Notes under the pieces: generated by a model | Databases searched by the model: none | What the model was told of the DNA's origin: nothing | The model's input: the letters and a program-made list of their open reading frames with translations, nothing else | Part shown: one piece after another, positions 1,774 through 30,571 of the stretch | Position numbering within the stretch: position 1 is the first letter of the stretch | Layout of the letters: each line of letters begins with the position of its first letter | Program-made: the position numbers and the translations under genes | Source of the DNA: Bacteroidota bacterium | GTDB taxonomy: Bacteria; Bacteroidota; Bacteroidia; Flavobacteriales_D; Sanyastnellaceae | Direction: 5' to 3' | Assembly (NCBI GenBank): GCA_027619225.1 | Contig: JAQCFW010000022.1 | Location: forward strand, 1 to 32,220 | Length of the DNA: 32,220 nt

Positions 1774-1781
1774 TACTTTTG
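1774..1781 (+). promoter_or_regulatory. Promoter -7 box (TACTTTTG) for tsaD
   Basis: An exact TAnnTTTG lies 20 bases before the tsaD ATG, predicting a 5' leader of about 15 bases. There is no Shine-Dalgarno sequence before the ATG. Confidence 0.5.
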
Positions 1782-1801
1782 TCGTTCGCTTTATTTCACA
1801 A

Positions 1802-2833
1802 ATGAATATTTCTCATCTTACTATCCTTGCGATTGAATCATCTTGTGATGATACTGGAGTAGCTGTACTAAAAGGCAATAAGGTGCTTTCAAATTTAGTG
1901 GCCAACCAGGAAATTCATGCGAGATATGGAGGAGTGGTTCCTGAACTGGCTTCTCGTGCCCATCTCAGCAATATCACTCCAACAGTAGAACTTGCCATTT
2001 CTGATGCTGGAATTTCCCCAGAAGAAATAGATGCTGTGGCGTATACCATAGGCCCAGGTCTAAGTGGATCATTGCTAGTGGGCGCTTCTTTTGCAAAAGC
2101 CTGGGCTTGGGCTCGTAGGATTCCTACTGTTCCGGTTCACCACATGAGGGCTCATGTTTTAGCTCACTTTATTTCTCCTGGTCCCCCTCCGGAATTTCCA
2201 TTTTTATGTCTTACGGTTTCTGGTGGACATACCCAAATGATTCATGTCCACTCTCCATCTAATATGGAGGTGATAGGAGCTACTCTCGATGACGCTGCAG
2301 GAGAGGCGTTCGATAAAGTCGCTAAATTGATAGGGCTACCTTATCCTGGTGGTCCACTGATAGATAAATATGCAGCATTGGGAAATCCAGAATCCTTCTT
2401 GTTTTCTAAGTCGAAAGTAGAGGGGTTGAATATGAGTTTCAGCGGCTTAAAAACTCAAGTGCTCAGGTTTCTACAAGCTCAACTTTCTCAAGAACCAGAT
2501 TTTATAGACAACAACCTCCATGATTTTTGTGCTTCCGTACAATCGGCGATTGTTGGGATGCTTATTACGAAATTGGAACTTGCAGTTAAAACTACTGGAA
2601 TAAAACAAGTGGCCATTGCTGGAGGGGTTTCGGCGAATTCTGGATTGCGCAAGGCTCTCACAGAGAAAGGATCTTTGTCAGAAGATCCATGGAAGGTGTT
2701 TATCCCCCCTATGAGCTATTGTACAGACAATGCGGCAATGGTGGGTATCGTGGGCATCTTCGATGCTGCCGACAAGAAGTTTGGCTCCCTTGCAGACACC
2801 CCCCAGCCCAGGATGCCCGATCTCAACTCTTAA
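1802..2833 (+). CDS. tsaD: tRNA N6-adenosine threonylcarbamoyltransferase TsaD
   Basis: TsaD transfers threonylcarbamoyl from threonylcarbamoyl-AMP to A37 of ANN-decoding tRNAs, working with TsaB and TsaE in the cytoplasm. The 343-residue protein has the usual length. Visible motifs are the ASKHA nucleotide-fold start AIESSCDDTGVAV (10-22), the metal-binding pair in HHMRAH (H114 and H118), SGGHTQ (140-145), the GEAFDKVAKLIGLPYPGG block, and near the C-terminus AGGVSANSGLR and SYCTDNAAM, whose Asp is a further metal ligand. Its stop codon overlaps the stop of the convergent kinase gene in a shared TTAA (2830-2833). No tsaB or tsaE is in the window. Confidence 0.97.
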   Translation: MNISHLTILAIESSCDDTGVAVLKGNKVLSNLVANQEIHARYGGVVPELASRAHLSNITPTVELAISDAGISPEEIDAVAYTIGPGLSGSLLVGASFAKAWAWARRIPTVPVHHMRAHVLAHFISPGPPPEFPFLCLTVSGGHTQMIHVHSPSNMEVIGATLDDAAGEAFDKVAKLIGLPYPGGPLIDKYAALGNPESFLFSKSKVEGLNMSFSGLKTQVLRFLQAQLSQEPDFIDNNLHDFCASVQSAIVGMLITKLELAVKTTGIKQVAIAGGVSANSGLRKALTEKGSLSEDPWKVFIPPMSYCTDNAAMVGIVGIFDAADKKFGSLADTPQPRMPDLNS

Positions 2834-6129: not shown

Positions 6130-6137
6130 TACTTTTA
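6130..6137 (+). promoter_or_regulatory. Possible promoter -7 box (TACTTTTA) four bases before the micropeptide start
   Basis: TACTTTTA differs from TAnnTTTG only in the last base. It lies exactly four bases before the ATG at 6142, the spacing seen at several other genes here, and would give a leaderless transcript for the micropeptide and hisS. Confidence 0.35.
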
Positions 6138-6141
6138 TCGC

Positions 6142-6219
6142 ATGCAATATTTATGGTTAGCAGTTTGTGGACTTATCGTGTTTTCATTTATTAAATACCG
6201 CAAGAGGTTAAAGAAATGA
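6142..6219 (+). CDS. Small 25-residue single-helix membrane peptide upstream of hisS
   Basis: The frame runs from ATG 6142 to TGA 6217-6219. It encodes a peptide starting MQYLWLAVCGLIVFSFI, a clean membrane helix, followed by a strongly basic tail YRKRLKK. Its TGA overlaps the hisS ATG as ATGA, the classic arrangement for translational coupling. A TAnnTTTA box sits four bases before the ATG. No family is recognised. It may be a real membrane micropeptide or a leader frame that controls hisS translation; there is no run of His codons, so classic His-attenuation is not indicated. Confidence 0.5.
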   Translation: MQYLWLAVCGLIVFSFIKYRKRLKK

Positions 6220-8329: not shown

Positions 8330-9390
8330 TAAGACACCTGGTTTTTATAAACCCATGACCAAGCGGCAGAGAAAGCGCTTTGTTTCCCCGATTTCACTTC
8401 TTGAGATAACACTTCCCAATCTGCTTTAGAGCTAGGATCTTCCATTTTTTTATCTAACAAAATATCTTTTGCGTGATAGAACATCCTGTCAGATTGTTGG
8501 TTTGACCTCTGAGCAATGAAAAACCCAGATTTTCTCCAATTTTTTGCAAGACTTGCAATGTGCTCTTTCACTTCGTGATGTCCAGCACCGGTGATGCTAC
8601 TTGCCGTCATGACCTCGACGACTTCTCCTCCATCTGGCATGGGGAATAAATGCAAAGAATTGCGATAAGATTGTGCTGTTTTTATACATGTGTCGATGCG
8701 ATCTCCATCCGCTTTGTGGACTACAATTAAGTCTGCCATTTCGACGATACCTCTTTTAATCCCCTGCACCTCATCGCCAGCTCCTCCGATGAGCAAGAGA
8801 GTGAACACATCAACCATTTCTCTGACTGAAGTCTCACTTTGGCCTACGCCCACAGTTTCAACAATCACCTTGTTATATCCAGCTGCTTCACATAAAATCA
8901 CGGCTTCCATGGTTGCTCTAGCTACCCCGCCAAGAGCCGAAGCGGCAGGAGAGGGGCGGACGAAGGCGGCCGAATGAACGGCCAACTCATCCATTCTAGT
9001 CTTGTCACCTAAAATACTGCCGCCAGTCTTTTTGCTAGACGGGTCAACGGCAAGCACGGCTACTCGATCGCCATCTTTAATCATGTCCAATCCGAGCCTT
9101 TCAATAAAAGTGCTTTTCCCAACGCCCGGTATACCAGTAATGCCAACTCTCAAGGTTTCTTTCCCGAAGGAAAGATCCTTAACCGCTTGAAGTAGCTCCT
9201 GAGCAAGCGGTCTGTCGGAGGGGTTTTCGCTTTCGATTAAGGTGATGGCTTTCGCTAGTTCCTCGCGTTTTCCTTCAACAATAGCTGCTGCGATTTCAGA
9301 GGCGTTAAAATCTTCAGTCCGATTTGACTGAATTCTTTTTCGGGCAGCATCGACAGCTTTATTCTTGGAAGACATTTTCTGACTACTCAT
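8329..9390 (-). CDS. meaB: Methylmalonyl-CoA mutase-associated GTPase MeaB (ArgK family)
   Basis: MeaB is a G3E P-loop GTPase that loads and protects the B12-dependent methylmalonyl-CoA mutase. The 353-residue protein has Walker A GIPGVGKST (86-94), AVDPSSKKTGGSILGDKTRM (114-133), the RPSPAASALGGVA block (145-157), the switch ETVGVGQSE (178-186), and the base-recognition motif HKADGD (225-230), where the usual N of NKAD is His. The C-terminal region has ASSITGAG and the helical arm that makes dimers. No mutase subunit gene lies in the window. The chosen ATG at 9390 has TAACTTCC followed by four bases, a possible leaderless start; M6 is an alternative. A degenerate kinase gene is coupled downstream. 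Confidence 0.93.
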   Translation of the reverse strand: MSSQKMSSKNKAVDAARKRIQSNRTEDFNASEIAAAIVEGKREELAKAITLIESENPSDRPLAQELLQAVKDLSFGKETLRVGITGIPGVGKSTFIERLGLDMIKDGDRVAVLAVDPSSKKTGGSILGDKTRMDELAVHSAAFVRPSPAASALGGVARATMEAVILCEAAGYNKVIVETVGVGQSETSVREMVDVFTLLLIGGAGDEVQGIKRGIVEMADLIVVHKADGDRIDTCIKTAQSYRNSLHLFPMPDGGEVVEVMTASSITGAGHHEVKEHIASLAKNWRKSGFFIAQRSNQQSDRMFYHAKDILLDKKMEDPSSKADWEVLSQEVKSGKQSAFSAAWSWVYKNQVS

Positions 9391-9394
9391 GTGG

Positions 9395-9445
9395 GGAAGT
9401 TAACAATCCTTTCATGTTTCGCCACATTTTGTTGACTTAACTTGC
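9395..9445. promoter_or_regulatory. Symmetrical divergent promoter region, meaB / secreted protein
   Basis: A 10-base imperfect inverted repeat, AAGTTAACAA (9397-9406) and TTGTTGACTT (9429-9438), has one mismatch and a 22-base centre. On both strands a TAACTT element stands with the same spacing to the start codon: TAACTTCC-N4-ATG (9402 to 9395, meaB) and TAACTTGC-N4-ATG (9438-9445, gene at 9450). Both fit TAnnTT but not the final TG of the -7 consensus. Confidence 0.35.
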
Positions 9446-9449
9446 GAGG

Positions 9450-10214
9450 ATGTATAAGCGTTTTATAGTTGGGGCCATTTCTTGTGCTTTTTTTGCAGCT
9501 TCTTTTTCAGCCCAAACTTTTACCCCATCGTCTCGTTGCGATTCTTCAATCGTCGTGAGCGGTTGGGTATTCGAACCCTATGGTGGCATTATCCCCACAG
9601 CTATGGCGGTAAATCGCGAGAGCGGGGGAGGTGTTTTTGTGGAGCGTGACGGAAGCTTTTTAGTTCGTGCTTGTCCAGGTGACACGCTTGTCTTCGGTGC
9701 GATAGGATATTATTCTGTGGAGCGTGAGGTTGTTAAATCTATGCGTACCTCAGACTTAGAAATCCAATTGCAACGATTAAAAGTCGATGTAGGTGTAGCG
9801 GAAGTGTATGCTCCAAGGGCTTTGCGTGCAATACTCCACGATATAGAAGCACTTGGATACAATGAAAAAGATTTCAGAGTGTCTGGGGTAAACGCTCTAC
9901 AAAGCCCCATTACATTTTTGTATGAGCAATTCTCTCAACGTGAACAATCAAAAAGATTAGAGGCGCAGTTGGTCAACAAAGACAACAGGCGAGAATTGCT
10001 TCAGGAATTGTTTGTAAAGTATGTAGATTACGATATAGTGCAACTCAAACAAGAAGAGTTCGATGAGTTCGCAGAGTTTTGTGATCCCGGAGATGAGCTT
10101 CTGAAAAAGTGGACTCAGTATGAGTTTATCTTATATGTAAAAAGACAATATGGTCTTTTTAAGATGATACCCCACAGGTTGGATGAGGGCGATTATAGGT
10201 ACGATCTAGATTAA
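9450..10214 (+). CDS. Secreted protein with carboxypeptidase-regulatory-like domain
   Basis: The 254-residue product has a signal peptide (about 1-21, ending ASFSAQ). Residues ~33-110 resemble the CarboxypepD_reg-like beta-sandwich common in Bacteroidota: VVSGWVFEPYGGIIPTAMAV, DGSFLVRACPGDTLVFGAIGYYSVEREV. The C-terminal half is charged and helical and not recognised (ILHDIEALGYNEKDF, then a Glu/Lys/Arg-rich segment to the end). The domain is probably a cell-envelope protein fold, not an enzyme. AGGATG at the start leaves no proper Shine-Dalgarno spacing. Its TAA shares a TTAA (10211-10214) with the stop of the convergent small membrane-protein gene. Confidence 0.75.
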   Translation: MYKRFIVGAISCAFFAASFSAQTFTPSSRCDSSIVVSGWVFEPYGGIIPTAMAVNRESGGGVFVERDGSFLVRACPGDTLVFGAIGYYSVEREVVKSMRTSDLEIQLQRLKVDVGVAEVYAPRALRAILHDIEALGYNEKDFRVSGVNALQSPITFLYEQFSQREQSKRLEAQLVNKDNRRELLQELFVKYVDYDIVQLKQEEFDEFAEFCDPGDELLKKWTQYEFILYVKRQYGLFKMIPHRLDEGDYRYDLD

Positions 10215-10531
10215 GCTAAGAATGCCGAATCCATATAAAACACGAAGATTTGGAATATATATGAAATGATACAGTACCCCACGGCTAGGACGTGAAGAAC
10301 TTTGAATCTTGCATTCAGTTTATCGAATCTAACGACGAGGTCCACAAATAAAGTCCCAAGACCCAGAAATTGAATAATCATAAGCGGAGTTCTGATTAAA
10401 TCGAAAGATTCTGAGATGATAGCCGCTGGTGTAGGAAATATGTTATCTAACAACTCTGAGAAGAGAAAAAGGGTGGTAATCGCCATGATTGCCCACAAAG
10501 TCACTCGAATCATCTGTCCGTCTTTATTCAT
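10211..10531 (-). CDS. Small three-helix membrane protein, unknown function
   Basis: The 106-residue product from the ATG at 10531 has about three membrane helices (residues ~9-27, ~46-66 and ~76-97), with a basic loop (RFDKLNARFK) between the second and third. No family is recognised. The frame extends upstream to 10567, but a perfect TATCTTTG promoter box lies between 10543 and 10536, so the longer form would start before its own promoter; the box is exactly four bases before the chosen ATG. The stop overlaps that of the convergent gene at 9450-10214. Confidence 0.65.
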   Translation of the reverse strand: MNKDGQMIRVTLWAIMAITTLFLFSELLDNIFPTPAAIISESFDLIRTPLMIIQFLGLGTLFVDLVVRFDKLNARFKVLHVLAVGYCIISYIFQIFVFYMDSAFLA

Positions 10532-10535
10532 ATAA

Positions 10536-10543
10536 CAAAGATA
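10536..10543 (-). promoter_or_regulatory. Promoter -7 box (TATCTTTG) with four-base gap to ATG
   Basis: The minus strand reads TATCTTTG-TTAT-ATG, an exact TAnnTTTG. With the transcription start normally a few bases after this element, the mRNA would begin at or next to the ATG at 10531. This decides the start of the small membrane protein. Confidence 0.5.
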
Positions 10544-10621
10544 ACACGCGAAAAAGATGTTTTGCACATTCGTTAGTCAGCAAACATTGTTATTTGGTTT
10601 TTTTATTTCATTCTTAAGCCC

Positions 10622-21073: not shown

Positions 21074-21763
21074 TTAGAAATTAGGTTTCAGCTCAACTTT
21101 CGAGTGATAGTTGGTGATGACTTTTACAGCCTCCTCCGGAGTATCTACAACATGCAGAACATCCGGGTCATGATCGGAAATCGTTTTAAACTCAGTGAGT
21201 AAAATATCTCTGAACCAATCTATGAGTCCTCCCCAAAAGTGAGATCCGTATAGAATAATAGGGCGCTTGTCGAGTTTGCCTGTTTGGACTAAAGTGAGAG
21301 CTTCGAAAAGTTCGTCTAAAGTCCCAAATCCGCCGGGCATCACCACAAACGCCTGACTGTATTTGACGAACATCACTTTGCGAACGAAAAAGTAGTCAAA
21401 GTCAATGCTTTTATCACGGTCGATGTAAGGGTTGTCGTGCTGCTCGAACGGCAGCTGAATGTTCAGTCCTACAGAAGGTCCGCCCGCCTCGTGAGCTCCT
21501 CTATTTCCAGCTTCCATCACTCCGGGACCTCCTCCTGTGATCACTCCGTAGCCAGCTTCAGAGAGAAGGTGGGCTACCCTTTGGGCATCCTTATAAACTT
21601 GTGTGTTAGGTCCTGTTCTCGCTGAACCATAGATTGAAACGCATGGCCCTATTCTTTGAAGTTTTTCAAACCCTTCTACGAACTCACTCATAATCTTGAA
21701 TATAGACCAACTGTCTTTCGACATGATCTCAGCCCAAGTCCTGTGTTTTAAATTTTTAGACAT
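21074..21763 (-). CDS. LOG-family protein (TIGR00730, nucleoside-5'-monophosphate phosphoribohydrolase fold)
   Basis: The 229-residue protein has the Rossmann-like LOG fold: VSIYGSARTGPNT, GVITGGGPGVMEAGNRGAHE and the signature PGGFGTLDELFEALTLVQTGK (one extended motif, around 142-162). LOG proteins cleave cytokinin ribotides or other nucleoside monophosphates to base and ribose phosphate; in bacteria without plant contact the natural substrate is usually unknown. The gene has its own promoter box, TAAGTTTG, exactly four bases before the ATG. An out-of-frame ATG lies four bases upstream (ATGAATG). A secreted-protein gene starts one base after its stop. Confidence 0.93.
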   Translation of the reverse strand: MSKNLKHRTWAEIMSKDSWSIFKIMSEFVEGFEKLQRIGPCVSIYGSARTGPNTQVYKDAQRVAHLLSEAGYGVITGGGPGVMEAGNRGAHEAGGPSVGLNIQLPFEQHDNPYIDRDKSIDFDYFFVRKVMFVKYSQAFVVMPGGFGTLDELFEALTLVQTGKLDKRPIILYGSHFWGGLIDWFRDILLTEFKTISDHDPDVLHVVDTPEEAVKVITNYHSKVELKPNF

Positions 21764-21767
21764 TCAT

Positions 21768-21775
21768 CAAACTTA
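21768..21775 (-). promoter_or_regulatory. Promoter -7 box (TAAGTTTG) with four-base gap to ATG
   Basis: The minus strand reads TAAGTTTG-ATGA-ATG, an exact TAnnTTTG. It predicts a transcript starting at or just before the LOG gene ATG. No convincing TTTG lies at the -33 position. Confidence 0.5.
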
Positions 21776-26980: not shown

Positions 26981-27921
26981 TAGATTAACCCTCTTCCGGT
27001 TTTTTTAATATCTCCTGACTCTTGAAGCTTGGTAAAGAGTTGGTCTAAAATGCCGTTAATAAACCCATGACTCTTCTCCGTGCTGTAGAACTTAGACAGC
27101 TCGATGTACTCATTCAAAGTCACCTTGAGTGGAATAGAAGGGAAGGTCTTTGCCTCTGCTAAAGCCATCTTCATGAGGATTTTATCTAAGAGAGCGATCC
27201 TCTCCAGCTCCCAGTTTTGAGCTCCTTCTTTTATGAGCTTTTCATTTCCCTCGCCTTGTGCAAGAGATTGGGTGAAAAGGTTTTTTGCGAAAGACTTATC
27301 GTCGTCGTCATTTCTCCAAAGCGGAAGAATATCCACATCCTCATCTTCCTCGTTTATGCTCTTAATGGTTTTAATTACCATAGAAGCCGCGTGGTCTAAG
27401 TCGTCTATCCAAAATATACTCTCCTCTTCCAACATGTCCTGAAACGCCTCATCATTAATCATGTGCTTTTTAAACATACGAATTAAAGATTCTCTATCGT
27501 GTCTAAACCCTGTATCCTCCGATTGCATGTAGTCTGTAAACTCTTCGTGAACCAGCAGCCCTCTGTATAGGTTGCGCAGAAGTTCACGATTTTTTCCCCA
27601 ACCTACACCTGTCTCAGAAAGTTTATTAGCAAGTCTTTTACTATCAGCGAGTATCCTTAGAGGAGAATTTCTCACAAATTTTGTATTTGGATGGAGATCT
27701 TCGTCTGTGGGAAGTTGTTTTTTACGGCTAGCCTCAATCTTGTCTATCGCTAATCCCTGCATCTCAGCTACCATAGAAAGGAGCAAAAGATAGAGTTCGT
27801 ACATCTTATCGATACTGTGGTCTAAAACTTTCTTGGCATTTGTTGCACTGCTGTCTTCGTCCTGATAGAATCCGTAGAGGATATGTAGGATCTTTATACG
27901 GAGGTGTCTTCTGTTCAGCAT
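26980..27921 (-). CDS. nusB: Transcription antitermination factor NusB (long Bacteroidota form)
   Basis: NusB binds boxA RNA with NusE/S10 to promote rRNA antitermination. The 313-residue product has an N-terminal extension typical of Bacteroidota (MLNRRHLRIKILHILYGFY) and the canonical NusB fold at the C-terminus: NWELERIALLDKILMKMALA, FPSIPLKVTLNEYIELSKFY, STEKSHGFINGILDQL. The frame stays open upstream to 27981, but MLNRR is the family start and the longer form would run into the promoter of the divergent gene at 27995. It heads the run nusB, DUF1573, yajC, nhaC, uvrA. A weak TAAATTCG box lies 17 bases upstream. Confidence 0.94.
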   Translation of the reverse strand: MLNRRHLRIKILHILYGFYQDEDSSATNAKKVLDHSIDKMYELYLLLLSMVAEMQGLAIDKIEASRKKQLPTDEDLHPNTKFVRNSPLRILADSKRLANKLSETGVGWGKNRELLRNLYRGLLVHEEFTDYMQSEDTGFRHDRESLIRMFKKHMINDEAFQDMLEEESIFWIDDLDHAASMVIKTIKSINEEDEDVDILPLWRNDDDDKSFAKNLFTQSLAQGEGNEKLIKEGAQNWELERIALLDKILMKMALAEAKTFPSIPLKVTLNEYIELSKFYSTEKSHGFINGILDQLFTKLQESGDIKKTGRGLI

Positions 27922-27982
27922 GTCGTCGTTACGTGGGGCGAATTTAGTCATTTCGTGTTGTGAATTACAAATGAGAAGCATC

Positions 27983-27990
27983 TACTTTTG
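27983..27990 (+). promoter_or_regulatory. Promoter -7 box (TACTTTTG) with four-base gap to ATG
   Basis: TACTTTTG-CATT-ATG: an exact TAnnTTTG four bases before the start chosen for the DUF4249 gene. A partial GTTG at 27957-27960 is roughly at the -33 position (22-base spacer). It lies in a 73-base region divergent to nusB. Confidence 0.5.
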
Positions 27991-27994
27991 CATT

Positions 27995-28963
27995 ATGTTT
28001 AGTTCCCGATTTTCATCATATTCTTTTTCCGCTCTTTCACTCTCAATCCTGATTCTATCGGGCCTGTCAATTGTGCTTGAAGGATGCACTAAGATTGTCG
28101 ATGTTGATTTGCCTGATTCGGAGCCTTTACTTGTAGTTGAAGGCACAATCCGTAACGGGGAGGCTCCCCTCGTTTTACTGAGTAAAACCCAAGGATATTT
28201 CGACCCCGTAGGCGACCTCTCAGAGAGCTTGTATATAGGCGGGGCAGAGGTAACGGTTTCCGCGAACGGCGTTCCATACCTCCTTGATGAAATTTGCACT
28301 CAAGATCTTTCCTCAGATATTCTAGAAGTGCTTGGAGTCACTTTAGGAATAGACCCTCAGGTTCTTGCTGAAAACCCTTTTTGCGCTTACACTTCTTTCG
28401 ATGAGCCAGCTCTTATAGGTGTTCATGGGGTAACCTACGACCTTCACGTGCTATACGACACACTTGAGGTTACGTCCTCTTCTAAAATTGAAAACACAGT
28501 ACCTATTGACTCTTTGGCTTTCGTTATTCCAACGACCGCTCTGAGCGACTCTATGGGGCTTATAACCACTTCATATACTGACCCTGATACTTTGGGAAAT
28601 TCCTACCGTTGGGCATCTCGAAGGGTGGGAGTGGATCCCTCTTTTATTTACCCATTGGGATCTGCCTGGGACGATAGTTTCGGTAATGGCACGCCATTAA
28701 CTTTCACTTTCTTCAGGTATTCTGAGGATTTCTCTGAAGAACCTGAAGGTGAAGCTGGCTTTTGGAAAACTGGCGATACCGTTCTTGTGCGTCTCGAATC
28801 AGTAGACCGGTCAGCATTTTCTGCCATTATGACTTTCGAGTCAGCTGCTTCAGCGCAGGGGAACCCCTTCTCACCACCGACCAATGTGATTACGAATATA
28901 GAAGGTGGCCTCGGGTGGTGGATCGCATACTCCAGTTCAGTAGATACGGTTTTCTGTAACTAG
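27995..28963 (+). CDS. DUF4249 lipoprotein
   Basis: The 322-residue product from the ATG at 27995 has a hydrophobic signal (FSALSLSILILSGLSIV) and a lipobox-like LEGC (Cys31; Glu at -2 is unusual). Then comes the DUF4249 start KIVDVDLPDSEPLLVVEGTI, YIGGAEVTVSANG and a beta-rich remainder. DUF4249 proteins are Bacteroidota outer-membrane-associated lipoproteins often encoded beside a TonB-dependent receptor; none is here. The open frame extends upstream to 27920, but the promoter box at 27983-27990 and the signal peptide place the start at 27995. The MuiA-like gene follows after 24 bases. Confidence 0.88.
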   Translation: MFSSRFSSYSFSALSLSILILSGLSIVLEGCTKIVDVDLPDSEPLLVVEGTIRNGEAPLVLLSKTQGYFDPVGDLSESLYIGGAEVTVSANGVPYLLDEICTQDLSSDILEVLGVTLGIDPQVLAENPFCAYTSFDEPALIGVHGVTYDLHVLYDTLEVTSSSKIENTVPIDSLAFVIPTTALSDSMGLITTSYTDPDTLGNSYRWASRRVGVDPSFIYPLGSAWDDSFGNGTPLTFTFFRYSEDFSEEPEGEAGFWKTGDTVLVRLESVDRSAFSAIMTFESAASAQGNPFSPPTNVITNIEGGLGWWIAYSSSVDTVFCN

Positions 28964-28975
28964 CTTCACTTGCCT

Positions 28976-28983
28976 TAATTTCA
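28976..28983 (+). promoter_or_regulatory. Weak -7-like element (TAATTTCA) four bases before the MuiA-like gene
   Basis: TAATTTCA matches TAnnTTTG at five of six fixed bases at most (TAnnTT kept, then C,A). Its four-base gap to the ATG at 28988 matches the spacing seen elsewhere here. The gene could equally be read through from the DUF4249 gene. Confidence 0.25.
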
Positions 28984-28987
28984 TCCC

Positions 28988-30571
28988 ATGAAATCTCACA
29001 TCACTTTAGCTCTCGCTTTCTTTCAACTTTGTTTTATCTCCTCTTCAGCCCAAACCTCGGTCTCTCTCCCCATCTCTTCTGTTGAGATCCACCAAGATGG
29101 TGCTAGGATTGTTCATTCTGGACCGATTCAACTCAGAACGACAGTTTGCACTATTGAGATCTCAGATCTCTCACACGATTTAGACTTCAACTCAATATCT
29201 ATCGACCTCCCTTCAGGTAGTTCTTTAGAAGCCATCAATTTTGATGTCCGCAACCGCAAGTCATCTAGCACAAATGAACTCAGTGAGGTTTTAGAGAGCC
29301 TGTCTAAGTTGGATGTAAAAACCCGTATGCTCGAAGCCGTCCTTCACACCTATAAAGAAGAACAACTTTTTCTTAGCGCTAACCGCAGTATAGGAAGTTC
29401 CCAAGAAGTGCTCCTTGTTGACGATGTCATTGAAATGGCCGACTTCCTTCGCGAAAGAAACCAATCTCTGGCCCTAGAACTCCTCGATGTCTCATTAGAT
29501 ATCGAAAGTCTCGCATTAGAATCTGCAGAACTTGAAGCTCGAAAGACGGCCCTAGAGCTAGTAGGCTCTGACCTCGAAGGTGTTCTTACCCTCGAGATAA
29601 AAAACTCCATCATCTACAGGAACGACCAGAATCTCACCCTCAAGTACCTCACTCCATCCGCCCATTGGGCCCCCGAGTACGAAGTGAATTTCTCCTCTGA
29701 CGGCATCCTTGTCAAGCGCTATGCTTCCGTAGCCCAAACCTCAGGCCTCGATTGGTTATCAGCTCCTCTCACCCTCCTCTCTGGAAGACCTTCTGGCTCC
29801 CTTGCTCCATCTCCGTTTCAGAACTGGATTCTCTCTACCACAAGCGGTTACAGAATAATCGCATGCCCTTCTTTTGACGATGATATAGAAGAAGATTTCT
29901 CGCCGAAAATAACGACTCGTTCTGACGATAAGTCCCCACAATCTTCATCTTACGTAGGAAAAGCTCGCTACCGTTTCGAGCTCGAAACCACCTCGATTAT
30001 AGCTTCCGATGGCAATCCAACTCGCGTAGAAATTGATGAATTCCCACTGGAAGGTGACCTTCGATATTTCGCAACTCCCGCTCTAAACTCCGAGGCATAT
30101 ACAACTGTTCGCATCGCCGACTGGTCAGGTCATAAACTCATGGACGGGAAAGCTCAAATCATAGCTGACAACACATACTTAGGAAGTTTCCCCCTACAAC
30201 TCCCAGTCATTGGCGACACCCTTGTAATGTCTCTCGGCTCGAATCCCCATGTCCTTTGCTCGAGAGAACTCTCAGAGGAGTTTTCTAAATCCACCTTCCT
30301 TTCTCGCAAAAACATCACTTCTACCTGGATACTCACTGTCGAGAACACCCTTTCCGACTCCATTTCTGTCGACCTGATCGACGCCCTCCCTCAATCCTCA
30401 ACCCGTGACGGAGATATTGAGATTGAAGTCTCAGCTTCCGATTCAGGTGAAATCGACCTCCTCAACCATCTCGTCACCTACCCCCTCGAACTCGCCCCAG
30501 GCGAGCGCCGCGAAGTTTCCCTGACGATCTCTGTTACGTATCCCAGACGTTCAGTTTTGAGAGGCCTTTAA
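28988..30571 (+). CDS. Secreted MuiA-family (DUF4140/DUF4139) protein
   Basis: The 527-residue product has a signal peptide (about 1-21, ending ISSSA). It matches the mucoidy-inhibitor A / DUF4139 family: an N-terminal DUF4140-like beta domain (SLPISSVEIHQDGARIVHSG), a long coiled coil (about 90-200, Leu/Glu-rich), and a C-terminal DUF4139 domain beginning near LTLKYLTPSAHWAPEYEVNF and ending with LELAPGERREVSLTISVTYP. The role of the family in envelope or capsule control is poorly known. The coding strand has many C-ending codons compared with hisS or tsaD. It follows the DUF4249 gene after 24 bases and is closed by a hairpin terminator. Confidence 0.88.
   Translation: MKSHITLALAFFQLCFISSSAQTSVSLPISSVEIHQDGARIVHSGPIQLRTTVCTIEISDLSHDLDFNSISIDLPSGSSLEAINFDVRNRKSSSTNELSEVLESLSKLDVKTRMLEAVLHTYKEEQLFLSANRSIGSSQEVLLVDDVIEMADFLRERNQSLALELLDVSLDIESLALESAELEARKTALELVGSDLEGVLTLEIKNSIIYRNDQNLTLKYLTPSAHWAPEYEVNFSSDGILVKRYASVAQTSGLDWLSAPLTLLSGRPSGSLAPSPFQNWILSTTSGYRIIACPSFDDDIEEDFSPKITTRSDDKSPQSSSYVGKARYRFELETTSIIASDGNPTRVEIDEFPLEGDLRYFATPALNSEAYTTVRIADWSGHKLMDGKAQIIADNTYLGSFPLQLPVIGDTLVMSLGSNPHVLCSRELSEEFSKSTFLSRKNITSTWILTVENTLSDSISVDLIDALPQSSTRDGDIEIEVSASDSGEIDLLNHLVTYPLELAPGERREVSLTISVTYPRRSVLRGL

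Follow-up and report, generated by a model that had tools for sequence, protein, structure and literature searches.

Predicted leaderless genes tied to a Bacteroidota -7 promoter box at a fixed four-base distance from the start codon in lineages of Flavobacteriales

Bacteroidota hardly use Shine-Dalgarno (SD) sequences, and how their ribosomes choose a start codon is only partly understood. For F. johnsoniae, leaderless initiation is reported to have been ruled out as the explanation (PMC6847099). Here we describe a locus at which the box TAnnTTTG, or its core TAnnTT, stands exactly four bases before several start codons, which raises the question of whether such genes are transcribed from their own first codon. 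The window, by which we mean the whole stretch of 32,220 nucleotides that was analysed, is contig C20 of the 2.03 Mb genome of an uncultured bacterium (a metagenome-assembled genome of 49 contigs, 97% complete), coded in this analysis as family f1, genus g1. An initial annotation had claimed seven boxes separated from an ATG by a gap of four bases (gap 4), predicting mRNAs with little or no leader, together with two contrasting genes; the places and spacings of all seven agree with the window sequence:

27995-28963, + strand: DUF4249 gene, predicted leaderless; box and start at 27983..27997, TACTTTTG-CATT-ATG
21763-21074, - strand: gene matching Lysine_decarbox / SLOG cluster 4 (Pfam), predicted leaderless; box and start at 21761..21775, TAAGTTTG-ATGA-ATG
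10531-10211, - strand: gene of 106 aa without Pfam match, predicted leaderless; box and start at 10529..10543, TATCTTTG-TTAT-ATG
9390-8329, - strand: MeaB-type GTPase gene, predicted leaderless; box and start at 9388..9402, TAACTTCC-CCAC-ATG
9450-10214, + strand: gene of 254 aa, predicted leaderless; box and start at 9438..9452, TAACTTGC-GAGG-ATG
28988-30571, + strand: DUF4139/DUF4140 gene, predicted leaderless; box and start at 28976..28990, TAATTTCA-TCCC-ATG
6142-6219, + strand: ORF of 25 aa, predicted leaderless; box and start at 6130..6144, TACTTTTA-TCGC-ATG
1802, + strand: start of tsaD, leadered contrast; box and start at 1774..1804, TACTTTTG 20 nt upstream of the ATG
17977: start of the J-domain gene (TerB and DnaJ domains), contrast; TATGTTTT, not TTTG, at gap 22

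The two contrasting genes had been said to keep the box at a gap of 20-22 bases; the spacings hold (20 and 22), and the J-domain box lacks the TTTG. The full TAnnTTTG occurs 21 times on both strands of the window, with an ATG at gap 4 in three of the 21. Several of the seven starts lie in compact surroundings. The divergent MeaB and 254-aa starts are 59 bp apart, and these two predicted leaderless genes share one very short intergenic region (9388-9452) with TAnnTT at gap 4 on both sides in 5 of 5 relatives; the box of the 254-aa gene, TAACTTGC, matches the TAnnTTGY box (SM5) described for F. psychrophilum (PMC9723704) and is perhaps read by another sigma factor. The DUF4139/DUF4140 start lies 24 nt past the DUF4249 stop, so that its box, if real, would be an internal promoter. 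The 25-aa ORF is hydrophobic (MQYLWLAVCGLIVFSFIKYRKRLKK), and its stop overlaps the ATG of a HisRS-like gene at 6216. Upstream of the DUF4249 gene, a divergent NusB-domain gene has its longest-ORF ATG at 27981, 13 bp from 27995, which places the DUF4249 promoter against or inside its 5' end; this ATG is absent in one relative (L184), and the gene caller picked 27951 as the start (region 27951-27995).

Within the window alone the gap-4 excess is modest, and suggestive rather than overwhelming: first-order resamplings give an expectation of 0.43 for TAnnTTTG-N4-ATG against three observed, and three or more were reached in 3 of 300. The initial annotation had judged three exact cases to be beyond chance from odds that ignored the free choice of pattern and spacing; genome-wide, the excess is beyond chance. 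In 832 kb, made up of the window and 40 further stretches, a simple hexamer caller yielded 695 genes with provisional starts, and we counted every in-frame ATG near these starts, so that no single start need be chosen. With the window left aside (800 kb), TAnnTTTG stands at gap 4 before 20 of 964 in-frame ATGs, against a mean of 1.84 per gap at gaps 9-45 (Poisson p ~1e-14), and before 1 of 539 out-of-frame ATGs; with the window included the counts are 23 of 1010 (mean 1.95) and 1 of 555. The genome-wide histogram of box-to-ATG distance that had been proposed as a check thus has its peak at gap 4, sharp and in frame only. For the TAnnTT core the in-frame count at gap 4 is 76 (70 without the window) against a background of about 12, and gap 5 is raised too (TAnnTTTG 7, TAnnTT 30). 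Over the whole genome, TANNTTTG-N4-ATG has 70 matches against 28 for the reversed pattern, and TAHHTTTG exceeds its reversed control at gap 4 (58 vs 20) and not at gap 12 (24 vs 23). A raw histogram of all boxes and ATGs in the first 400 kb, regardless of genes, does not single out gap 4 (12 matches, with up to 13 at another gap), which we take as dilution by boxes and ATGs inside genes. GTG and TTG starts have no gap-4 peak for the full box (1 GTG and 0 TTG in frame); TAnnTT-N4-GTG occurs nine times in frame, other gaps from 0 to 12 giving 1-6.

The spacing is also preserved gene by gene within the genus. We scored a start as conserved when TAnnTT-N4-start, with an in-frame ATG or GTG, fell in a range reaching from about 60 nt before the aligned start to 30 nt after it. 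By this measure 54 of 56 orthologous starts in same-genus relatives, which are not phylogenetically independent, retain the arrangement. This comprises 10 of 11 relatives for the DUF4249 gene (41-90% protein identity), 12 of 12 for 21763, 9 of 9 for 10531 (GTG being the start in one), 5 of 5 each for the MeaB gene at 9390 and the 254-aa gene at 9450, 10 of 11 for 28988, and all three relatives with a recognisable copy of the 6142 ORF, two of five having been dropped from the count for want of one. The exceptions are L190, with TACTTTTG at gap 7 before the DUF4249 gene, and L184, with gap 5 before the DUF4139/DUF4140 gene. Any other gap from 0 to 30 is found in at most three rows for each of the seven genes, and the exact TAnnTTTG is preserved in 28 of 32 rows for orthologues of 27995, 21763 and 10531. 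The gap-4 motif is retained while upstream bases and N-termini vary between relatives; the N-terminus of the DUF4249 protein shifts from one relative to another, and the box travels with the ATG. By MeaB identity the nearest named relatives, all Flavobacteriales or Bacteroidetes metagenome-assembled genomes, are UBA2619 (84%), SZUA-1298 (70%), NORP19 (68%) and two more at 66-67%.

Leadered genes behave differently. Across ten genomes (our own and nine relatives, one aligned start being extrapolated), the tsaD box, in the form TACTTTTG, TACTTTCG or TATTTTTG, lies at gaps of 20, 20, 39, 29, 36, 36, 36, 20, 19 and 35, our own genome first, with a second TAnnTT at gap 12-13 in four rows; the rpsU box has a gap of 18-20 in nine genomes. 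The drifting tsaD gaps, set against the fixed gap 4, indicate that both start classes exist, as had been suggested from the window: one at gap 4 and a leadered one at about 18-39 nt that varies between relatives. In the tsaD orthologues L222 and L223 the aligned start is TTG rather than ATG (that of L223 extrapolated from residue 8).

The bases around the gap-4 box have the character of a promoter. When sites were picked by TAnnTT only, so that positions -6 and -5 played no part in the selection, 38 of 73 had T at -6, 42 had G at -5 and 23 had both, an enrichment over 145 other divergent starts, where T at -6 and G at -5 make up 24% and 13%. Gap-4 sites (n = 71) have C directly after the box in 42% of cases and leadered boxes (n = 58) in 53%, and the two sets consequently look like one promoter type. 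G is avoided at both n positions, 21 of 23 exact gap-4 sites being TAHHTTTG; the start at 21763 (TAAG) departs from this form, and four of the seven sites first listed match TAnnTT only. Gap-4 TAnnTT boxes are favoured at the heads of transcription units and rarer at tightly coupled genes. They stand before 34 of 202 divergent starts; among same-strand starts they stand before 14 of 120 that lie more than 60 nt from the preceding gene, 14 of 103 where this distance is 16-60 nt, and 11 of 225 where it is at most 15 nt. The last 11 are either chance or need internal promoters, and they count against the promoter reading. The -33 element of sigma-ABfr promoters is not enriched: TTTG falls within -40..-26 at 6 of the 73 gap-4 sites and at 36 of the 247 other heads, and TTG at 15 of 73 and 75 of 247 respectively. 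F. johnsoniae likewise has no clear -33 motif (PMC6847099). Sigma-ABfr promoters are also expected to carry AT-rich blocks roughly one and two turns of the helix before the box, reported at -28 and -18 in F. johnsoniae; the AT-rich bumps that we find upstream of gap-4 sites (AT fraction 0.76 at -30 and 0.73 at -21, with about 0.65 for comparison) are 2-3 nt off those positions. RNA structure after the predicted leaderless ATGs averages -3.5 kcal/mol (71 sites) against -4.3 kcal/mol (242), a reduction that at p = 0.07 we do not claim.

Where would transcription begin at these sites? Of the 73 gap-4 sites, 52 carry C or T at base -1. A pyrimidine followed by a purine is a common transcription initiator, and this preference fits such an initiator with +1 on the A of the ATG. 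Many candidate promoters of F. johnsoniae are reported with 4 or 5 nt between box and transcription start, the box lying at -12 to -5 (PMC6847099), and the sigma-A box of F. psychrophilum is also placed at -12 to -5 (PMC9723704); by the F. johnsoniae distance, the A of an ATG at gap 4 would be +1 or one base off. Among the 58 leadered boxes of our genome, 47% have C as the fifth base after the box, from which their +1 may often be the sixth base. We infer the following route for transcription and translation. Each site would be a promoter for the primary sigma factor (sigma-ABfr type), with its -7 box spanning -12 to -5 relative to the start codon; initiation by RNA polymerase would follow 4-5 nt further on, at the A of the ATG; the resulting mRNA would be leaderless, with AUG at its 5' end, or nearly so; and translation would proceed from the 5'-terminal AUG, presumably by ribosomes preloaded with initiator tRNA, a Shine-Dalgarno or Kozak-like leader having no part in initiation. 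That a sigma-ABfr -7 box at gap 4 gives leaderless or near-leaderless mRNAs in this genome is, in our judgement, highly likely, and the gap-4 peak, the conserved starts and the box-to-start distance in F. johnsoniae together suggest that the leaderless reading of the initial annotation is probably right.

Of the competing readings, the one to be taken most seriously, though still unlikely, accepts the promoters and shifts the transcription start (as for a gap of 3, 5 or 6), which would yield ultra-short leaders or, if the shift is inward, a truncated AUG and a later start codon. The 4 and 5 nt both seen in F. johnsoniae, the raised counts at gap 5 and the frequent C five bases past leadered boxes speak for such a shift, but the peak lies at exactly 4, is conserved at 54 of 56 starts and comes with the pyrimidine at -1. 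It is less probable again that the box beside the ATG is a secondary promoter, most of the mRNA being leadered and coming from promoters further upstream. The start at 28988, so close behind the DUF4249 gene, may also receive read-through. Against this reading, a search covering the exact TAnnTTTG alone found no other same-strand copy in the 2.5 kb preceding the starts 27995, 21763 and 10531; only 13 bp separate 27995 from the divergent longest-ORF start, and 59 bp separate 9390 from 9450.

A fixed distance to the start codon is also what a ribosome-binding site would have, and TAnnTTTG at -12 could on that ground be a translation signal rather than a promoter. We find this very improbable: the same box with its following C stands at longer gaps in leadered genes, it is depleted at coupled genes, it is published as a sigma box (PMC6847099, PMC9723704), and its T at -8 to -6 does not resemble the adenines, upstream of the start, that are said to aid initiation in Bacteroidetes (PMC10783764). 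Chance, or an artefact of start choice, draws some support from the 3 of 300 resamplings that reach the count within the window, but it is refuted within the genome sample by the independent stretches (20 against 1.84 per gap) and the single out-of-frame match in 539, and we give it virtually no weight.

With the leaderless or near-leaderless reading thus preferred, its abundance can be gauged at operon heads. In our genome the TAnnTT gap-4 excess amounts to 12.7% of 322 heads (bootstrap 9.1-16.6%), or 16.4% with gap 5. No other single box-to-start distance is as frequent as gap 4; the leadered class, with gaps of 15-35 taken together, adds 13.8% of heads (-0.8 to 28.1%). The excess is 10.1% both in G240 (f9, g27; 130 heads) and in G102 (f1, g16; 71 heads), whereas Flavobacterium flevense, with 283 heads, has 0.6% (-1.2 to 2.8%); UBA2619, with too few heads (47 in 104 kb), does not show the excess, giving 4.6% (-1.8 to 12.1%) and no exact box at gap 4 among eight. 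Expressed instead as TAHHTTTG at gap 4 among all boxes within gaps 0-40, the share is 11 of 61 (18%) in our genome, 7 of 39 in G240, 3 of 23 in G102 and 4 of 79 (5%) in F. flevense. The boxes of F. flevense are most frequent at gaps 19 and 25, and its gap-4 share is close to the 5.5% of leaderless mRNAs reported for F. psychrophilum (PMC9723704). Our genome and F. flevense differ in this share at p = 0.025 for gap 4 and 0.0015 with gap 5, and by TAnnTT per head (47 of 322 against 7 of 283, p ~5e-8), whereas the exact box per operon head (11 of 322 against 4 of 283) does not differ significantly (p = 0.13). The contrast is smaller by the exact box than by the TAnnTT core, and F. flevense, being more AT-rich (33% vs 42% G+C), has the higher background.

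A survey of 100 genomes of the order, comparing pattern counts at gap 4 with those at gap 12, shows the excess to be patchy. Family f1 has 1689:445 (3.8-fold), with 24 of 25 genomes above 1.5-fold; f10 has 326:126 (3 of 3 genomes), f9 a moderate excess of 2464:1384 (17 of 24) and f4 447:306 (4 of 8), while no genome passes 1.5-fold among the 24 of f3 (1357:1482) or the six of f12 (325:358). The small families f2, f5, f6, f7, f8 and f11, with 1-3 genomes each, range from 0.86 (f5) to 2.26 (f7). For AT-rich genomes gap 12 is an imperfect background, since short leaders may contribute to it, and the f3 and f12 ratios near or below 1 therefore mean no gap-4 excess rather than the absence of all leaderless genes. 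The reversed-pattern control outside Bacteroidota gave 39:34 in Bacillus, 5:7 in Sulfitobacter and 0:0 in Actinomycetospora; in F. flevense it gave 80:57.

On the translation side, anti-SD variants are known in Flavobacteriia (PMC9976891, PMC10783764, PMC6107199); the first of these reports that about 80% of Flavobacteriales meet strong-SD criteria at rpsU, and describes a compensating SD at rpsU in Flavobacteriales with an altered anti-SD. A search for 16S rRNA in our own genome found none. The sole complete 16S found in the genus (G163, locus L157) has the tail ...GGATTAACTCCTTT and ends in GGATTAACTCCTTTTTAG, its anti-SD core being ACUCC rather than CCUCC; a member of another genus of f1 (G057) has the tail TTATCTCC. 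Tails were found by pattern in 43 of 249 genomes, and their anti-SD was compared with the gap-4 excess by eye. A strong excess occurs with CCTCC kept in G009 (g2), G032 (g3) and G026 (g4) of f1 and in G041 (f9, g27), while among genomes lacking the excess G016 (f12) has ATCTCC and those of f3 keep CCTCC. Since the anti-SD state does not track the gap-4 excess, loss of the anti-SD was rejected as the cause of leaderlessness, and no causal link is claimed. A compensating SD at rpsU was rejected as well: from 13 loci, L203, L204 and L206-L212 (our own being L211) were read, L202, L205, L213 and L214 being dropped because no start was found by pattern, and by eye none of these 9 readable genus members has an SD within 60 nt upstream of rpsU. 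A TATCTTTG box lies 18-20 nt upstream of the rpsU ATG.

How far do these features go beyond known systems? Leaderless or nearly leaderless transcripts are on record for F. psychrophilum (5.5% leaderless mRNAs; PMC9723704), for F. johnsoniae (13% with a leader of at most 10 nt among genes with a probable promoter; PMC6847099) and for Bacteroides thetaiotaomicron (about 3.7% with a 5' UTR below 10 nt; PMC7366714), and these species are alike in belonging to the same phylum, using the TAnnTTTG box and having 5'-end starts in a minority of mRNAs. Unlike in those three, gap 4 is here the commonest single distance, and relatives within the genus preserve it at the individual genes. A TANNNT box about 12 nt upstream of the start is described for leaderless genes of Actinobacteria and Deinococcus-Thermus (PMC3160421); it is a different sigma box, which likewise makes the start codon +1 or nearly so by a fixed distance. 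The leadered sigma-ABfr -7 promoters share the box and the following C, their gap being longer and variable between relatives. The survey by Zheng et al. 2011 covered 37 Bacteroidetes/Chlorobi genomes, lists leaderless genes for one of them (2.4%) and identifies only Pribnow-like promoters (PMC3160421), and StartLink treats the FCB group as having non-canonical AT-rich ribosome-binding sites (PMC9581028). A search of openly available literature brought up no account of an enrichment of leaderless genes in lineages of Flavobacteriales. Leaderless mRNAs as a minority of transcripts are thus known in Bacteroidota, and it is their abundance, gene-by-gene conservation and patchiness that look new; from sequence, the predicted leaderless genes described here appear to be of this known kind, in a form that is abundant, patchy between lineages and linked to the Bacteroidota -7 box.

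A wider proposal, to which we give even chances, is that within this one order f1, f10 and a large part of f9 have coupled the sigma box to the start codon, unlike f3 and f12. Leaderless translation would then be, in certain lineages only, the main way of initiating at operon heads, and in our genus it would be accompanied by decay of the residual Shine-Dalgarno system (16S with ACUCC, rpsU without an SD). A lineage in which predicted leaderless genes are common and conserved gene by gene would offer a natural comparison for finding which ribosomal or factor change accompanies this mode. The fixed gap also supplies a rule for annotating gene starts, favouring 27995 over the longest-ORF start at 27920 and 10531 over the GTG at 10567. 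Furthermore, it marks genes that possibly differ in their response to antibiotics acting on leadered initiation (PMC9581028).
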